Positions 1,498-13,155 are shown, counted from the first letter of the stretch. The stretch is 64,000 nt of DNA from Collibacillus ludicampi (GCF_023705585.1 NZ_BOQE01000001.1:2760710-2824709), one strand, 5' to 3'. Notes: generated by a model from the letters alone, not told the origin. Made by a program: numbers and translations.

Positions 1498-1792
1498 TTT
1501 TCTTAGCCCCACTTTTCATTTGGTTTTATCTTTGACAGTGCTTCTACAATTGTAACACTATTTATCGAACGTTTTGATACTTTCCGGCCATCAAAATGCT
1601 TCCACGAAAATTCGCTCGTTACGTTTGTTGAACTCGTTCTGTTTGAAGTGATACAAGGCATTGCTAAGACGGTTTCGACATCTTTCGCATATTCCCTTCT
1701 GTTACTTTGCTTCTATTTACTGCTAGTAATAGACTATAGGAACTCCTATCATGCTGTGTTACCATAATAGAAAAAAGGTGAATGGACACATT

Positions 1793-2806
1793 ATGACGGT
1801 CGATCTCTCGTTGCAACAGTATTTGCGATCATGGAATGAGTCTTTACGAAAAGAAAAGTACTCTTGGCCTAGCAGGAGGGAGTTGCGCGCAGAGCTTGAG
1901 AATACGGTCGGACACTTGATCCCGCTTCGCAAACTGGATGAACAAGAAATAAACACTCTCTCGGGAGGAAGGCCTCTCGTGGGTGTCGATGGGTCGGTCT
2001 ATACACTCGGGGGAAATTACCCATTTACCGTTACCGCCTTTCAAGCGGTTGCCAAATCGACAGTTGCTTTCGACCGGACGGACAAAGTTGTGCGATCGTC
2101 GTTGTATAGTCCACTGGATCGTGAAGACCGCGATGCACTTCGATCTTTTATGGAGGAAAACGAAGAGGGGCTGACGGAAGAAGCGGCTTTTTCCCGTTAT
2201 AAAGACAGACAGATGGCTCTGCTCGAGATCGAAGCGGCAACGATAGCGTTGGAAAGGTTTCGACCGTTTCTGATCCTTCTTGATGGCCAATTCAGCCGTT
2301 ATCAGAAAGATGAAGAGTTATTCGACAAGTGGCATGTATTCTGTAAAAGGGCACAAGACTGTGAGGCACTCGTGGTGGGGGTCGTTGAAGAGGTTGGTAC
2401 GATGAAACTCAAGAAGTTTCTTTCCCAACCCGTGCAAGATCGGCTCATAACCGGTCATGACCGAGAGATTTTGTTCGGTTTATTCGAAACGGGTGAGGCG
2501 CTTTTGCCGCATGAGGAGATTGAGATCAAACATGACGCTTATGTTGCATTCGCACGCTTATCTGACCAACCGCAAGCGATCGCTTGCAATTTCCTCTATG
2601 ACCAGGTAGATCATGTACAAGATCTCTTGTGTTTGCTTTATACCCTCACCCCGAAACAGGGAAGGGGCATTCCTTTATGGCTCGATCTCGTGGATGTCGA
2701 GGCAAGGATTACGAAGAAAGAATGGGAAATGTTGGTGCAATCGACTCTCGACAAAGACATATATGAACGTTTTTTGCGTCCTCAGAGGGAGCGAAGGGAC
2801 TACTGA
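1793..2806 (+). CDS. nurA: DNA double-strand break repair nuclease NurA
   Basis: A 337-residue NurA-domain protein. NurA is a manganese-dependent 5'-3' nuclease that works with the HerA translocase to resect DNA ends. The hallmark GVDGS is at residues 64-68 (Asp66 is the expected metal ligand), and a second acidic motif ILLDGQ follows at 161-166 (Asp164). The start is set at the ATG at 1793. An in-frame ATG at 1751 has no clear ribosome binding site, while AAAAAAGGTG precedes 1793, although 12 bases away. It is the first gene of a same-strand series with herA, a Mre11-like gene and a split Rad50. The stop is 56 bp before herA, so co-expression is likely. A promoter could not be assigned confidently in the 280-bp upstream gap. 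Confidence 0.88.
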   Translation: MTVDLSLQQYLRSWNESLRKEKYSWPSRRELRAELENTVGHLIPLRKLDEQEINTLSGGRPLVGVDGSVYTLGGNYPFTVTAFQAVAKSTVAFDRTDKVVRSSLYSPLDREDRDALRSFMEENEEGLTEEAAFSRYKDRQMALLEIEAATIALERFRPFLILLDGQFSRYQKDEELFDKWHVFCKRAQDCEALVVGVVEEVGTMKLKKFLSQPVQDRLITGHDREILFGLFETGEALLPHEEIEIKHDAYVAFARLSDQPQAIACNFLYDQVDHVQDLLCLLYTLTPKQGRGIPLWLDLVDVEARITKKEWEMLVQSTLDKDIYERFLRPQRERRDY

Positions 2807-2862: not shown

Positions 2863-4728
2863 ATGCAAATCGTTGGAACGACTACACAGATGGAAGCCTG
2901 GGCAGCATCGCGCAACCGCAAGTTTCATATCAACGAAATCTTAATTATCGAAGATACGGATCACGGTGATTTGCAAGCGGAAGTCGTTCAGACCAGCAGC
3001 TTTAACCGATACATTCCCCTTGCCAATGAACAATCGGGCCTTGTTGATCCGGATGTGCTCAACAGCATGCGCTCTCTAGGCTTTGATCTCAAGAATGAAA
3101 CGATCTATGTGGCCAAATTGCGTTTGTTAGAAGAAATTAACAAACCGATAACGGTGGGTTCGCATGTGCGCGTACCCATTTTTTCTGAAGTAGAGAAGCT
3201 GTTGGTGAAAAAACGGCCTGCCGAGGGATTAACGCTCGGTGTGATCATGGGTACGGGAGATGTGGCAAAAGGGATGCCGGAAGATCTGCTAGACGTCGCT
3301 CTCCTCTATAACAAGGAGGAGGGAATCATCCCGCAAAACGGAGTTCCATTCGTTTTTGACTATCGATCCATGGATAACTACCCGCATATCGGTATTTTCG
3401 GCGGTTCGGGTTCAGGAAAATCATTTGGGCTGCGGGTACTGCTTGAAGAACTGATGGGGAAGAAAGTGCCTGCCGTTGTTTTCGATCCGCATTATGAATT
3501 GCAGTTTAATGATCCTTTTCCTGGATTGCCCGATTTCTACAAAGAGGATTACAAGCGGCGCTTTGTCATTCTGGCTGCGGGAACTGATGTGGGAATCGAA
3601 TTCTCCGAATTGACGAGTGACGATATCGTTTCCCTTTTGCGTTCTTCTTCAGGATCACTTACGGATGCGATGGAAAATGCGATTAAAACCTTACATAAAA
3701 AAGGGGACAGTTATCATTCATTTGCCAGCCGGATTGCCAATATGGCCGAAGCCCTCGATGACGAGGAATCCGTGAAAAAGCAAGCGAGAGAAGAGGAACT
3801 TCTCGATGGCGCGGAACGTGAGAGAGTCAAAGAGATGGCGAAGCTCCTGAGGACGTATAAAGATAAAATCGGGGGATCGGCCCATACGTTACGGGCGATC
3901 ACCCGCCGGTTACATCGTTTGGATATGGAAGGCGTCTTTGTCCCCCTCGGAACTCATGCGATCGAAGAAGCGCTCATGCGCAGGCAGTTGGTCGTGATCC
4001 GGGGATCCATCTGGTTCTTGCAAGTGTTCGCATCTTATCTGGTACGGAAGCTTTACCAGAAGAGAAGAGCGTATCGTGATTCGATTCAAAAAGGGAAGCC
4101 GATTGAAGAAAAATTTCCGCCATTTGTCATCATTACGGATGAAGCCCATAATTTCGCGCCGACGGGTGCACTTGAATCACCCACCAAAGCGATCCTCAAA
4201 GAAATTGCCCAGGAAGGCAGGAAATACGGGGTTTTTCTGGTACTGGCCACCCAGAGACCGGCTTTGCTCGATGACACGATCACAGCACAATTAAGTACCA
4301 AAATTGTGTTTCGTACCGTGCGTGCTACCGACATACAGGTGATTCGCGAGGAGACCGACCTCACGTCGGAGGAAGCGAGCCGCTTGCCTTACCTCCCTTC
4401 GGGAACCGCTTTTCTCTCGTCAGCAATTACGGGAAGGACGGTAGCTATACGCATCCGTGTATCGAAAACGACCTCTCCACATGCTAGCAATCCGTTTGAA
4501 GAACTGGACGAATCATTTGCAGAACTGGATGCGAAACTTTGGGAGGCACTCACAGATTTGTTGCCGATTGACGCTTTCAATCTCACTGCCTATTTACCGG
4601 AGATTTCACGGAAAATGCGCCGCACGATTTCCCACGACGAACTGGCACATGCACTGCAATCCTTTGCCGAAGACGGTCGTCTTCTCGCAGAAAGGACGCC
4701 GTTCGGTTTGAGGTACAGGCGGCGGTAA
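2863..4728 (+). CDS. herA: HerA-type hexameric DNA translocase (DUF87 ATPase)
   Basis: A 621-residue ATPase of the HerA/FtsK superclass. An N-terminal beta-barrel-like HAS region occupies about residues 1-130. Walker A is GGSGSGKS at 180-187. Walker B is PFVIITDEAHN with Asp426-Glu427. The following LVLATQRP near 458 is the polar sensor motif. Known HerA forms a ring that feeds DNA to NurA and is stimulated by Mre11-Rad50. A GGTGAT ribosome binding site lies before the ATG at 2863. It follows nurA by 56 bp and precedes the Mre11-like gene by 265 bp, a gap filled by a palindromic repeat. The C-terminus (residues about 540-621) looks like a small winged-helix extension. Confidence 0.9.
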   Translation: MQIVGTTTQMEAWAASRNRKFHINEILIIEDTDHGDLQAEVVQTSSFNRYIPLANEQSGLVDPDVLNSMRSLGFDLKNETIYVAKLRLLEEINKPITVGSHVRVPIFSEVEKLLVKKRPAEGLTLGVIMGTGDVAKGMPEDLLDVALLYNKEEGIIPQNGVPFVFDYRSMDNYPHIGIFGGSGSGKSFGLRVLLEELMGKKVPAVVFDPHYELQFNDPFPGLPDFYKEDYKRRFVILAAGTDVGIEFSELTSDDIVSLLRSSSGSLTDAMENAIKTLHKKGDSYHSFASRIANMAEALDDEESVKKQAREEELLDGAERERVKEMAKLLRTYKDKIGGSAHTLRAITRRLHRLDMEGVFVPLGTHAIEEALMRRQLVVIRGSIWFLQVFASYLVRKLYQKRRAYRDSIQKGKPIEEKFPPFVIITDEAHNFAPTGALESPTKAILKEIAQEGRKYGVFLVLATQRPALLDDTITAQLSTKIVFRTVRATDIQVIREETDLTSEEASRLPYLPSGTAFLSSAITGRTVAIRIRVSKTTSPHASNPFEELDESFAELDAKLWEALTDLLPIDAFNLTAYLPEISRKMRRTISHDELAHALQSFAEDGRLLAERTPFGLRYRRR

Positions 4729-4781
4729 GCACTGGCTTTATACGTTACTCCATACCGTGAGTATCGATATCATTAGATGTT

Positions 4782-4978
4782 AAGTTTCTTGTGCGGGAAG
4801 AGAAGTTTAGATCGACTACAAGCAGGGGAGTGGCTTGTGGTGGGTGTATCGCTTTGCGGCGCAGAGGTGAGTTGAAGGTCGTTCCGCAACCTCTAATAAG
4901 AATCCAGGCGGGACGACCTACATCGAACCCAAGCGCAAAGCGATACACCCACTCAAGCACTAAGTTTTAAGATCGATT
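4782..4978. repeat. Palindromic intergenic repeat, copy A (between herA and the Mre11-like gene)
   Basis: A long imperfect palindrome. The outer arms GTGGGTGTATCGCTTTGCG (4840-4858) and its perfect complement (4934-4952) enclose inner arms GGTCGTTCCGC (4877-4887) and GCGGGACGACC (4908-4918). A left flank AAGTTTCTTGTGCGGGAA (4782-4799) and a right flank AAGCACT-AGTTTT are shared with the copy at 9.2 kb. The right flank is also shared with the partial copy at 13.1 kb. No open reading frame is credible inside. It looks like a MITE- or REP-like element. As RNA it would form a strong stem-loop inside the repair operon. Confidence 0.8.
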
Positions 4979-4993: not shown

Positions 4994-5983
4994 ATGAAAT
5001 TACTCTATATCACAGATACCCATATCCGCGCAACATCACCGGCAAATCGAACCGATGATTTCATCGAAACATTGAAAGCGAAATTCAGGGAAGTGGGCCA
5101 TCTGGCACAGATGCACGAAGTGGATGCCATATTGCATGGAGGGGATTTTTTTGATATTCCCAATCCCTCATTAGCAATTTGCGGAGATTTCGTTGCCCTA
5201 ATGAAAGAATGGGGAAAACCCATCTATGGAATCGCGGGAAATCACGACCTATTTGGTCATAACCCGGATACCTTGTCACGCACGATGCTCGGCTTTATCA
5301 ACCGCCTCGGTATCGTGCGGCTGATCCATCCTGGTGAGCGCGTCTTTTTGGAAAAAGGAGGCGTGCGCGTACAACTGAGCGGACAACATTATCATTATGA
5401 GCTGGATCGCCGCGATCCCCGATTGGACTATTGCATTCAAGAGAAAGAGGCGGATGTGGCGATCCACTTGGTTCATGGCATGCTTCTCGATCGCAAATTC
5501 ATGGACGGGGTGGCCCATACGGTCGTCGACCAGATCGTAGAAACGGCCGCCGACATGACATTATGCGGCCACAATCACCTCGGGTTTCCCCCGGTTGAAA
5601 CGAACGGCAAGGTGTTTTATAACCCAGGAGGCTTTGTGCGTCTGTCCAATCACCCCGTAGACGTTCAACGCATACCTCAAGCGCTGCTTATCGACGTGAC
5701 TGACGGTTCCCTGACGTACCGTGCGATTCCGCTTGAGAGTGCACCGAATGGCGAAGAGGTCATCGATTGTTCGAAGAAAGAAGAGGCGGCATTCATGGAG
5801 CAGCGACTTGCACAGTTTGTGCAAGGAATCAAAGCGGCGGGGGATTATAAGGCGGTCGATATCGGAGCGATTCTCAATGAAATTGCTGATCGAGACGGGT
5901 TGCCCGCCGATGTGCGCGAGGAAGCGATGAGGCGGATCGCCGCCGCGGAAGAGAGACTGGCGGCAGGGAGTGCGAATCGATGA
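4994..5983 (+). CDS. Mre11/SbcD-like metallophosphoesterase
   Basis: A 329-residue calcineurin-like phosphoesterase with every Mre11 nuclease motif: DTH (Asp8, His10), GGDFFD (Asp51), GNHD (Asn83, His84, Asp85), VHGM (His161) and GHNH (His193, His195). These residues bind two metal ions in enzymes that nick and trim DNA ends. The protein is shorter than typical SbcD (about 380-400 residues), so the capping and Rad50-binding tail is compact. GGGGGTGAGCGAGCG before the ATG supplies the ribosome binding site. Its stop overlaps the start of the Rad50-like N-half by 4 bp (ATGA), which indicates translational coupling and identifies the partner ATPase. Confidence 0.9.
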   Translation: MKLLYITDTHIRATSPANRTDDFIETLKAKFREVGHLAQMHEVDAILHGGDFFDIPNPSLAICGDFVALMKEWGKPIYGIAGNHDLFGHNPDTLSRTMLGFINRLGIVRLIHPGERVFLEKGGVRVQLSGQHYHYELDRRDPRLDYCIQEKEADVAIHLVHGMLLDRKFMDGVAHTVVDQIVETAADMTLCGHNHLGFPPVETNGKVFYNPGGFVRLSNHPVDVQRIPQALLIDVTDGSLTYRAIPLESAPNGEEVIDCSKKEEAAFMEQRLAQFVQGIKAAGDYKAVDIGAILNEIADRDGLPADVREEAMRRIAAAEERLAAGSANR

Positions 5984-7458
5984 AGACAATCAAGAAGATC
6001 ATCATTGAAAATTTCCAGTCACATGAATATAGTGAACTGGAGTTTGATAACGGATTGAATGTGATTATCGGTGCATCCGACCAAGGAAAGTCATCTGTCA
6101 TCCGTGCGCTTCGATGGGTATTGTACAACGAACCCCGCGGCGCCGATTTTATACGCGTCGGCGCCAATCATGTGCGAGTGACGATTTACATGAATGACGG
6201 CTTTATCGTAACGCGTGAGAGAACCCCGTCCAAGAACCGATATATTGTCACAAGTCCGGATGGGGATGAACAGATCTATGAGGGATTTGGGAACAGTGTT
6301 CCGCAAGAGGTGATCACTGCTCACGGCGTGGAGAAAATCATGCTGGATGAAGGGGAAGAGAAGATGTTGCATCTCGGCATGCAACTCGATGGCCCTTTTC
6401 TCCTTTCAGAATCAGGAGCGGTCAAGGCCAAGGCGATCGGTCGATTGAACGGCGTGCATATTATTGACGCGGCACATCGTGATACTTCCCGTGATCTTGC
6501 GCGTTTGCAACAGGATGAGAAAACATACCGCGAACAATTGCATGCTTTGCAAGAAGAACTCGAACAGTTTCAAGACCTCGCCTACCTGGAAAATATACTG
6601 TTTCTCGTTGAAGAAAAACAGAATCGTGTGCAGCAGCTTTCCACGAGGCTAGCCAAGCTAAAGCAGTTGCGTGATGCCATGCAGGAAAATCATAGGCAGT
6701 TGGAAATCGCCGAACGGGTGTTGCAACAAACGGAAAAGTTAACGGATATTGTTGGACTATGGGAATGCGCGGTGCAAGTGAACGAGAGGGTAAAACGGCT
6801 GCGGTTCTTACGTGAGAAACTGCAAAGTATTCGACGTGAACTCGCATATTGTGCAAAAATCGAACAGGAGACAAGAGAACTCGAACGCGCTTCTCAGAAA
6901 GTAACGAGTTTACAACAAGTATTAAATAAACATCGACTGCTTCAACAAATGTCAGGGAAGTGGAAGGAAGTGAATCGATCCCTGGCTCTTGTTGAACGTG
7001 TCTTGGAACGAACAAAAGATGTGGAAAAGGGGATCCATCTCTATGAACGTTTGATCCGCCTTGGCATGAAACAAAAGACGCTTCGGACTTCTTATGAAAA
7101 ACTGCGTCTGATTGAGCGAGACACGCAAGTGGTTGAACGCTATTTGACACGCTTGGCGGAAATCGATCGCGCCGAGGAGAAACTTGCTCATTTAACTAAG
7201 TTCATCGATCGTCTCCAAAGGCTCGCTTCCTTGCGAAACCAGAAAGCAGAGATTGAAGAACGTCTATTCAGGGCCGATCAATTTCTTAAGGAACATGCAC
7301 GTGAAATGGAGAAACAATTAAACGCTTACCAGATTTTATTGAAGCGCTCCGGTACATGCCCGGTTTGCTTCTCACCGATCGATGAACATACAACCGAACG
7401 GATTTTAGAGGAGTTTACAGGGGGAGTGGAAGATGGAAGAGAAACTCGCGGAACTTAA
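5980..7458 (+). CDS. Split Rad50/SbcC-like ATPase, N-terminal half with zinc hook
   Basis: A 492-residue protein that carries only half of an ABC/SMC-type ATPase. It begins with a strand-loop-helix containing Walker A GASDQGKSS (31-39) and a Q-loop region QLDGPFLLSES near 135. A long coiled-coil stretch, about residues 165-450, is rich in E, K, Q, L and R. A Rad50-type zinc hook CPVC at 460-463 follows, only about 30 residues from the stop. There is no ABC signature, Walker B or H-loop in this ORF. Those are encoded by the ORF at 7681. A zinc hook normally sits at the apex between two arms, so here the protein ends just past the apex. It is coupled to the Mre11-like gene by a 4-bp overlap. 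Confidence 0.87.
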   Translation: MKTIKKIIIENFQSHEYSELEFDNGLNVIIGASDQGKSSVIRALRWVLYNEPRGADFIRVGANHVRVTIYMNDGFIVTRERTPSKNRYIVTSPDGDEQIYEGFGNSVPQEVITAHGVEKIMLDEGEEKMLHLGMQLDGPFLLSESGAVKAKAIGRLNGVHIIDAAHRDTSRDLARLQQDEKTYREQLHALQEELEQFQDLAYLENILFLVEEKQNRVQQLSTRLAKLKQLRDAMQENHRQLEIAERVLQQTEKLTDIVGLWECAVQVNERVKRLRFLREKLQSIRRELAYCAKIEQETRELERASQKVTSLQQVLNKHRLLQQMSGKWKEVNRSLALVERVLERTKDVEKGIHLYERLIRLGMKQKTLRTSYEKLRLIERDTQVVERYLTRLAEIDRAEEKLAHLTKFIDRLQRLASLRNQKAEIEERLFRADQFLKEHAREMEKQLNAYQILLKRSGTCPVCFSPIDEHTTERILEEFTGGVEDGRETRGT

Positions 7459-7678
7459 AGAAGGGCTCACAAAAGCACGTGACTTGCGTTTGCGAGCCGA
7501 GACGAAAAAAGAAAATCTGCTCAAGCAGAAGGAAGATATTCTCACGCAGATACAAGCGGAAGATGTTGACCCGGAACAGCTCGATGCGGAAATCAGCAAG
7601 TTGGAGAATGAAATCGCAACACTTACGGAGGAGATCCATGCGTTGATTCCCTGGGATTTGATCAAGAGAGGGGAATGA
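7433..7678 (+). CDS. Small coiled-coil protein, probable part of the split Rad50 arm
   Basis: An 81-residue, highly charged protein (many E, K, L, Q heptad-like positions; no cysteines; no catalytic motif) that is predicted by eye to be one long coiled coil. It starts 26 bp inside the end of the Rad50 N-half in another frame, behind a good AGGGGGAG ribosome binding site, and ends where the C-half begins. Position and composition suggest that it supplies part of the descending coiled-coil arm as a separate subunit. I know of no named family. It could instead be a remnant of a once fused arm, but its intact frame and its own ribosome binding site argue that it is made. Confidence 0.7.
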   Translation: MEEKLAELKEGLTKARDLRLRAETKKENLLKQKEDILTQIQAEDVDPEQLDAEISKLENEIATLTEEIHALIPWDLIKRGE

Positions 7679-7680
7679 TG

Positions 7681-8331
7681 ATGGACATTACAGTCGCAGT
7701 CCGCGAACTGCGTGCCGCTTATCATCGCCGACTTGGAGAGCGGGACGCGATCTTGCGGAAAATTGAGCAAACGGAAGCGAAATTGACCCAGTTGCAGAAG
7801 GAAATGGAGATCTTGGTGCAGGTGAAAATTTTACTGCAACAATCGTCCCATTTTGCCCGTGAACAGGCGCGCAAGCAGATTGAAGGGATGGTCACGCAAG
7901 CGCTTCAATATATATTTGGCGATGAAAACATGGAATTCCGAGTCGAGATTGAAGAAGTGCGCGGTCGCGCGGAAGGCGAATTTTATGTTGTCTCGTTATA
8001 CGGCGGAGAGATTCCTGTGCAGACGCGTCCTCAAGATGCCAGAGGAGGAGGAGTCGTCGATGTGATCTCACTCGCTTTACGCGCTGCGCTGCTTCAGGCC
8101 ACACGGATGGAAGGGCCGATCATTCTCGATGAACCGGGCAAGCATGTATCTGCGGAGTACAGTCGGAATGTAGCCCAGTTTCTTAAAGAACTGTCGGCGG
8201 CATTCGGACGGCAAATCATCTTAGTCACACATAACGCGGAACTCGCTTCGATGGGGGACGTATCCTATCTGGTAGAACTGCGCGAAGGGCGAAGTCATGT
8301 CACGCCTTTTCATGCGACGATGTTGGCGTGA
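7681..8331 (+). CDS. Split Rad50/SbcC-like ATPase, C-terminal half
   Basis: A 216-residue protein with about 55 residues of coiled coil followed by the C-terminal ATPase lobe. The ABC signature region is DARGGGVVDVIS (119-130), Walker B is PIILDEP (146-152, Asp150-Glu151), and the H-loop is LVTHNAE (His184). These motifs complement the Walker A and Q-loop of the ORF at 5980, so the two must assemble to hydrolyse ATP. Three consecutive ATG codons occur at 7675, 7678 and 7681. I chose the last because AGAGAGGGG is then 7 bases upstream. The first ATG would overlap the TGA of the 81-residue ORF. A terminator follows 37 bp after the stop, closing the operon. Confidence 0.87.
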   Translation: MDITVAVRELRAAYHRRLGERDAILRKIEQTEAKLTQLQKEMEILVQVKILLQQSSHFAREQARKQIEGMVTQALQYIFGDENMEFRVEIEEVRGRAEGEFYVVSLYGGEIPVQTRPQDARGGGVVDVISLALRAALLQATRMEGPIILDEPGKHVSAEYSRNVAQFLKELSAAFGRQIILVTHNAELASMGDVSYLVELREGRSHVTPFHATMLA

Positions 8332-9000: not shown

Positions 9001-9167
9001 TGAACATAAAGGGGTTTTTGACATATTTATTCCTTGATAGTAGCCATTCATGCCGTATGCGGCGGTGCCATATGATCTCCACGAGGCACGAACGGAAAGC
9101 ATACTCCCTCCAAACTACACTTTTTAGATAGTCCCCAATGCCGCAAGCGGCGCTATCAGAGGATGAA

Positions 9168-9480
9168 AAGTTTCTTGTGCGGGAATAGAGATTTAAGCTG
9201 CCTAATGCAACGGAGTATCTTTTGGGTGGGTTGTATCGCTTTGCAGCGCAGAGGTGAGTTGAAGGTCGTTCCGCTTCCTATTGCTCTCGTAAAGGGGGTA
9301 TATGCTTTGCGCGTAATAGCGACTTTGAAGGTCGTCTCGCAACATTTGAATAATATTCCATGCGAGACGACCTTCACGGAGCATGAGCGCAAAACATATA
9401 CCCCAAAGACGACCTTCATCGAACCCAAGCGCAAAGCGATACACCCACCCAAGCACTCATTTTCAAGGTAGGTCTTATTT
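9168..9480. repeat. Palindromic intergenic repeat, copy B, with a nested element
   Basis: Shares the left end AAGTTTCTTGTGCGGGAA (9168-9185) with copy A, and the right arm beginning CATCGAACCCAAGCGC (9417-9447, identical over 31 bases in all three copies) with copies A and C. Its left outer arm has small changes (an extra T at GGGTTGTATC and TTGCAG for TTGCGG). The middle is replaced by a second palindrome at 9295-9404. The 9003-9167 stretch before it holds only two short GC hairpins (ATGCCGYAWGCGGC-like) and no gene that I can support. Confidence 0.8.
9295..9404. repeat. Nested related palindrome inside copy B
   Basis: Outer arms GGGGTATATGCTTTGCGC (9295-9312) and GCGCAAAACATATACCCC (9387-9404) enclose perfect 14-base inner arms GAAGGTCGTCTCGC (9327-9340) and GCGAGACGACCTTC (9362-9375). 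It has the same outer-arm and inner-arm design as copy A with diverged sequence, so it looks like an older or different subfamily member that sits within copy B. Confidence 0.7.
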
Positions 9481-12835: not shown

Positions 12836-13092
12836 AAAGTAAGAGTAAAAGCTATGAAGAGGACAGCGTCTATTCGAAACATATCTCAGAGAGAGAGCAC
12901 CTTGGCTGGAAGTGCTCTTGATATCAGGCGAATAGAAGACCACCTCTGAGCTGCTTGAAGGAAATGTCAAGCCGGAGCCTCTCCGTTATGGGAACGAGGG
13001 TCTGTTCATCGAACAGACTGAATCGGGGTGGAACCACGGAGTCAAGCACTTTCGTCCCTGCAAGATCGGGGATGAGAGTGTTTTTTATTTTG
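12836..13092 (+). promoter_or_regulatory. Threonine T-box leader of thrS with attenuator
   Basis: Stem I is closed by CTATTCG/CGAATAG, and GAAG-ACC (specifier ACC, 12939-12941) follows as the Thr codon. The T-box proper is GGGTGGAACCACGG near 13025. The terminator CACTTTCGTCCC...GGGGATGAGAGTG ends in TTTTTTATTTT (13047-13092). Uncharged tRNA-Thr should favour the antiterminator and switch thrS on. Confidence 0.93.
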
Positions 13093-13097
13093 TTAGT

Positions 13098-13155
13098 CAT
13101 CGAACCCAAGCGCAAAGCGATACACCCACCCAAGCACTAGTTTTCAAGGCAGTCT
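13098..13155. repeat. Palindromic repeat, copy C (right half only)
   Basis: Begins CATCGAACCCAAGCGCAAAG and is identical to copies A and B over 31 bases, continuing with AAGCACTAGTTTTCAAGG as in copy B. The left arm is missing, and the T-box terminator stands in its place. The fragment lies between that terminator and the thrS ribosome binding site, within the thrS mRNA. Confidence 0.85.

Follow-up and report, generated by a model that had tools for sequence, protein, structure and literature searches.

A Rad50-like ATPase encoded on three separate polypeptides in Bacillota chromosomes, plasmids and phages

Organization of the locus

The window, i.e. the whole 64,000-nucleotide stretch of DNA that was analysed (Collibacillus ludicampi, GCF_023705585.1, NZ_BOQE01000001.1:2760710-2824709), belongs to a Bacilli chromosome whose closest relatives are the Tumebacillus group (same order). 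Its + strand encodes, in succession, NurA, HerA, an Mre11-like nuclease and three ORFs named R50N, R50M and R50C in the present analysis (N, M and C for short), followed by a tRNA cluster.

1751..2806, + strand: NurA nuclease, 351 aa (Pfam NurA, E = 4.7e-17, above the cut-off)
2863..4728, + strand: HerA hexameric ATPase/translocase, 621 aa (Pfam DUF87/HerA central domain, E = 1.4e-17; NCBIfam HerA_Thermprot, 2.4e-18, below the model's cut-off)
4994..5983, + strand: Mre11/SbcD-like nuclease, 329 aa (Pfam Metallophos, 1.1e-13; Mre11_Halo and Mre11_Sulfo, ~5e-8)
5980..7458, + strand: R50N, 492 aa, Rad50 ATPase lobe I, ascending arm and C-terminal zinc hook (Rad50 PRK03918, E = 1.4e-26; PHROG_16465, 4e-79)
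6070..6093, + strand: Walker A GASDQGKS, R50N residues 31-38 (Gly31, Gly36 and Lys37 invariant, 93/93)
6382..6384, + strand: Q-loop Gln135 of R50N (invariant, 93/93)
6454..7356, + strand: ascending coiled-coil arm, R50N residues 159-459, in 47-residue tandem modules (AlphaFold helices, autocorrelation)
7357..7368, + strand: zinc-hook CPVC, R50N residues 460-463, the chain ending 29 residues further on (Pro between the cysteines in 93/93)
7433..7678, + strand: R50M, 81 aa, small helical subunit, putative descending-arm segment (PHROG_18563, E = 1.2e-9; dN/dS ~0.10)
7675..8331, + strand: R50C, 218 aa, 80-residue helix and Rad50 ATPase lobe II (AlphaFold pLDDT 95.4; PHROG family match, 5e-61)
8041..8055, + strand: altered ABC signature RGGGV, R50C residues 123-127 (Gly at the signature-Ser position in 81/82; preceding Arg in 64/82)
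8128..8133, + strand: Walker B Asp152 and catalytic Glu153 of R50C (invariant, 82/82)
8230..8232, + strand: H-loop His186 of R50C (81/82)

The three R50 ORFs matched three separate PHROG families (4e-79, 1e-9 and 5e-61). They lie where the original prediction, made from the DNA alone, had placed a Rad50-like ATPase divided among three ORFs, with the first two at the predicted lengths and the last at 218 aa from position 7675 instead of 216 residues, the shorter form corresponding to an ATG at 7681. Each ORF overlaps the next one as predicted, by 26 bp (R50N/R50M) and 4 bp (R50M/R50C), and the Mre11-like gene overlaps R50N by 4 bp. On reading the sequence, the metallophosphoesterase motifs DTH, GGDFFD, GNHD and CGHNH of the Mre11-like nuclease were intact, and ribosome-binding-like sequences were present 5' of R50M (AGGGGGAG) and 5' of R50C (GAGGGG).

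The Mre11/SbcD-type partner nuclease of Rad50/SbcC proteins accompanies the family as a neighbouring gene or as a fusion, with seven Mre11-R50N fusion ORFs in the first set of loci. Thermophilic clostridial loci (L055, L056, L058, L059) shared the single gene order NurA-HerA-Mre11-N-M-C. On large plasmids of Paenibacillus and Aneurinibacillus, a HerA homologue (~40% identity) was found 3' of R50C (L045:8812-10641, L046:8798-10645), and stands beside an Mre11-R50N fusion.

Two further features of the window were recorded. An intergenic repeat of ~190 bp with inverted-repeat character occurs at 4780-4975, where it parts HerA from Mre11, at 9158-9470 and at ~13089-13148, and is present genome-wide in ~40 near-full-length copies with ~81-93% identity. 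On the - strand, a 243-aa ORF (781-1512) resembles, by eye only, a flavin-dependent thymidylate synthase (ThyX).

R50N carries lobe I, the ascending arm and a terminal zinc hook

The closest full-protein family to R50N was PRK03918 Rad50, and the SbcC family model TIGR00618 was absent from its matches at E 0.1 or less. In the AlphaFold model (mean pLDDT 82.9, pTM 0.45), residues 1-198 matched Rad50/SMC lobe I, the arm past residue 198 lying outside the structural match. R50N thus possesses the lobe I of Rad50/SbcC proteins with both Walker A and Q-loop, and, as the original prediction had it, Walker A and the CPVC hook are on the same 492-residue ORF. A CPxC hook was found in 93/93 aligned R50N sequences, a proportion counted among rows that had been picked for C..C near the C-terminus, and the hook is missing from a few distant phage proteins (L179, L181 and L182). 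Hook-bearing R50N proteins end 2-41 residues past CPxC, except on the phage contig L163/L246.

R50M is a conserved small subunit

Based on a profile search, R50M was a separate small ORF in 202 of the 207 loci carrying both N and C. Divergent M proteins of phages were part of the profile behind this count, and a control profile built from them alone recovered the Bacillota M ORFs at ~1e-8. The M proteins share a conserved motif, A..G-V-x-P-E...LIP. Among the five loci lacking a profile match, L163 and L246 represent a single phage contig in which N and M may be fused, L167 contains an M-like ORF recognized by eye and missed by the profile, L130 is a broken assembly, and L121 is without explanation. 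The phage protein at L163:5582-7897 unites Mre11, R50N and 138 residues past the hook. This tail may be an M segment, with a weak, non-significant match to the M profile (7.4 bits, E = 0.13), and a search for relatives of the candidate fusion retrieved only itself. Extra N-terminal material on some R50C proteins (L154, L160) does not amount to a clear second M.

The dN/dS ratios were ~0.10 for M, ~0.11 for C and ~0.25 for N (approximate values, as synonymous sites are fairly diverged), i.e. purifying selection acts on R50M as strongly as on R50C. A GYDP-type motif shared with the descending arms of SbcC was sought and was not consistently present, so the case for M as an arm segment draws on gene order, size and weak matches to Rad50 profiles.

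R50C carries lobe II with an altered signature

The best structural match of the R50C model was the C-terminal ATPase fragment of Pyrococcus furiosus Rad50 (1f2u_B; Z = 15.0, 2.5 A, 144 of 145 residues), and R50C possesses the lobe II fold with Walker B and H-loop characteristic of Rad50/SbcC. The original prediction of ABC signature, Walker B and H-loop on the last ORF held for the latter two (LDE with residues 152-153; His186), while the signature is RGGGV and not LSGGE. Across the family, the canonical LSGG(E/Q) signature and the D-loop Asp are replaced: the signature reads RGGG[VI], with Ser changed to Gly in 81/82 sequences, and the D-loop Asp is Ser in 77/82. A Ser-to-Arg reading of the signature was dropped, as fixing the register on the SLALR/LAFR helix gives Ser to Gly. 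Because of the RGGG[VI] signature and the D-loop Ser, the R50 family is not a canonical Rad50, and these changes could mean that ATP hydrolysis is weak or absent.

At the sequence level, R50C matched RecN (4e-11) better than Rad50, and TIGR00618 was absent among the best 25 of its 34 matches at E 0.1 or less. Together with the distance that sometimes separates C from N, the RecN match would suit an arrangement in which N and Mre11 amount to a shortened Rad50 and C, a RecN-like protein, acts by itself, so that C and M do not belong to the same ATPase. This is very unlikely: Walker A is confined to N and Walker B to C, and each is invariant in the half that carries it; M accompanies N and C in 202/207 loci that have both; and the best match for the fold of C is the Rad50 C-terminal fragment. 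R50C was also rejected as a RecN chain in its own right, as it spans positions 336-516 of the 563 of RecN alone and is without Walker A.

The split is conserved across Bacillota, plasmids and phages

The 207 loci with both N and C were drawn from Bacillota chromosomes, plasmids and phages. No single ORF joining N to C or M to C was found in any of them, i.e. the uninterrupted orthologue that would have told against the original prediction does not occur among these relatives, and the two lobes and two arms that Rad50/SbcC unites in one chain are nowhere combined in one ORF. The same three ORFs were present in Tumebacillus, Thermoactinomyces, alkaliphilic Bacilli, Tissierella, Caloramator, thermophilic Clostridia, several plasmids and many phages. 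Since the same three separate ORFs recur over some 200 loci, the split is far beyond chance.

The genes are not always adjacent. In phages, gaps of up to 7.5 kb occur between the split genes. In six clostridial genomes, R50C stands alone, 3' of a FolD-like and 5' of an RNase Y-like gene (neighbours identified by eye from sequence in the five genomes inspected of the six), with Mre11-N-M together elsewhere. In L057, L061, L062, L066 and L077, R50C occupies a conserved housekeeping neighbourhood in the order FolD-like, R50C, RNase Y-like, YmdB-like, SpoVS-like. In Bacillus phage vB_BboS-125, an AP2-domain gene lies between N and M (L032:5119-5691). Genes for AP2-domain proteins are of a type often linked to mobile endonucleases, and the location of this one exactly between R50N and R50M is a possible hint at the origin of the chain split.

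These arrangements bear on whether programmed frameshifting fuses N, M and C into one Rad50 chain. Such fusion would agree with the short overlaps at both joints within the window, but is highly improbable given that the frame of M relative to N shows an even spread (48/44/43) and that the phage gaps, the AP2-domain gene and the six clostridial genomes with unlinked C all separate the parts; with R50C unlinked in some Clostridia and the phage genes at times separated by kilobases, one chain joined by frameshifting is excluded. The probability of a sequencing or assembly error, or of a decaying single-chain rad50 pseudogene, is negligible: a frameshift would indeed produce overlapping frames at the joints, but the same split is seen in ~200 loci, M is under purifying selection, all catalytic residues are kept, and orthologues with separate, even unlinked, genes already refute it.

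The split form and SbcC are nearly mutually exclusive

No SbcC match was found in the home genome, where all 38 candidates were scored; the genome encodes an AddA-like protein. Among 200 Bacilli genomes, each surveyed with 3 scored candidates, 29 possessed R50C, and 26 of these had no SbcC (3/29 have it), vs 143 of the 171 others having SbcC. This near-exclusion was significant by genome (Fisher p = 1e-14) and by genus (p = 5e-9), p-values that are inflated by shared ancestry. The split Rad50 apparently stands in for the one-piece SbcC.

The ascending arm varies in modules independently of the descending arm

In the textbook view, Rad50 and SMC proteins consist of one chain, with two arms that pair along their length. 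In the window, the arms do not match: the ascending arm comprises 301 residues and the descending material 172, which upholds the mismatch of the original prediction (~290 vs ~160). Across 158 non-redundant loci, ascending arms, taken as the stretch between lobe I and the hook, fell into classes with medians of 151, 198, 254, 301 and 348 residues, with few values in between. Autocorrelation of 82 sequences peaked at lags of 47 and 94, revealing a tandem repeat, and the helices of the AlphaFold model break at a matching interval in the R50N arm (near residues 298, 345 and 393). The descending material (tail, M and C coil) remained flat near 163 residues and showed no correlation with the ascending arm (Spearman 0.11, slope 0.06, n = 104). 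As the arm class shifts at least 30 times on the R50C tree, modules have been gained and lost repeatedly, with M and C unchanged. Such module-wise variation is not predicted by a strictly paired antiparallel coil.

The shortest class alone was balanced (151 vs 155, the descending length coming from 3 of its 11 members). In these minimal phage forms the hook ends the ascending arm, and the earlier suggestion that the hook lies off the apex is not favoured. The ancestral form may have been a balanced coil of ~150 residues per side, to which 1-4 helical modules, mostly of 47 residues, would have been added in N only.

How the additional modules are packed may be read in three ways, the first added in the present analysis and the other two raised by the original prediction. 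Tentatively preferred, at somewhat short of even odds, is an extension of the hook-side rod in which the modules would pair between two N subunits. It is possible, though unlikely, that the extra modules are helical hairpins, each doubling back along the ascending arm. Self-contained modules of this kind would explain insertion without change in M or C, and the helix breaks have the ~47-residue spacing expected of them; however, the model has one ~42-residue helix per module, so that in a zigzag the hook end would change direction with every module added, yet module numbers that differ by one are all represented. Lining of longer ascending arms by several copies of R50M, or by another coil, is quite unlikely. 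One M plus the C coil fits only the shortest arms, and two copies would roughly fit 254 residues and three 348, but the ascending step is ~47 residues vs ~80 for M, and the length of M is constant across arm classes.

Proposed assembly and function

The reading favoured overall, with a probability of roughly 85%, is that these proteins act in DNA end processing as an obligate heteromeric Mre11-Rad50 complex. R50N would bring lobe I (Walker A and Q-loop), the ascending coil and the zinc hook as the end of its chain; R50M would supply part of the descending coil, and R50C the base of that coil and lobe II (signature, Walker B and H-loop). ATP binding would need N together with C, because neither half has a full nucleotide site, and a working head would need two N and two C. 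That split halves are able to assemble is shown by the P. furiosus Rad50 crystal, which was built from two separate chains. The Mre11-like nuclease would dock on the base of the coil, and the neighbouring NurA-HerA would extend resection, as in archaea. The likely role of the complex would be the processing of double-strand breaks and hairpin ends in place of SbcCD.

A more elaborate version, in which the coil ring of a three-subunit Rad50 could be opened or rebuilt by subunit exchange, R50C would act as a separately controlled, rate-limiting ATPase half (unlinked in some Clostridia) and the ascending arm would vary in ~47-residue modules independently of the descending arm, appears rather unlikely.

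A family in which the chain is cut beside the hook, the ATPase halves are on different genes and one arm is modular permits tests in which parts are mixed. Mixing of parts addresses the roles of the hook, of arm length and of arm-to-head coupling in single-chain Rad50.

Comparison with known systems

No earlier description of a split Rad50 was found in the open-licence literature searched. The system resembles archaeal-type Rad50 with Mre11, HerA and NurA in its lobe I, zinc hook, lobe II fold, Mre11 partner and NurA-HerA neighbours, and differs from the single archaeal chain in its three chains, unequal arms and altered signature and D-loop. With bacterial SbcC/SbcD, it shares a nuclease and a coiled-coil ABC ATPase with a CPxC hook, and the split form has likely replaced that role; SbcC, however, is a single protein of ~1030 aa in which the hook, at 521, is roughly central, a family that R50N does not match through TIGR00618. 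Phage T4 gp46/gp47 is a short-armed phage Rad50/Mre11 with arms resembling those of the minimal split forms, but gp46 is a single 561-aa chain with the hook at 288. The crystals of the P. furiosus Rad50 catalytic domain (1f2t/1f2u) also divide lobes I and II between two chains (149 and 148 aa), through an artificial laboratory split without coils, whereas the R50 split is natural and comes with full arms and hook.

In phage 0305phi8-36, an Mre11/Rad50 fusion was described in which one P-loop NTPase segment was 'not observed', and the whereabouts of the missing segment were not reported (Yoshida 2011; PMC3175470). This fusion matches locus L159, where a separate R50C is encoded ~1 kb downstream, with R50M in between. 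The split explains why many Bacilli show an SbcC 'gap', and it also explains the half-missing Rad50 that was noticed in this phage in 2011.
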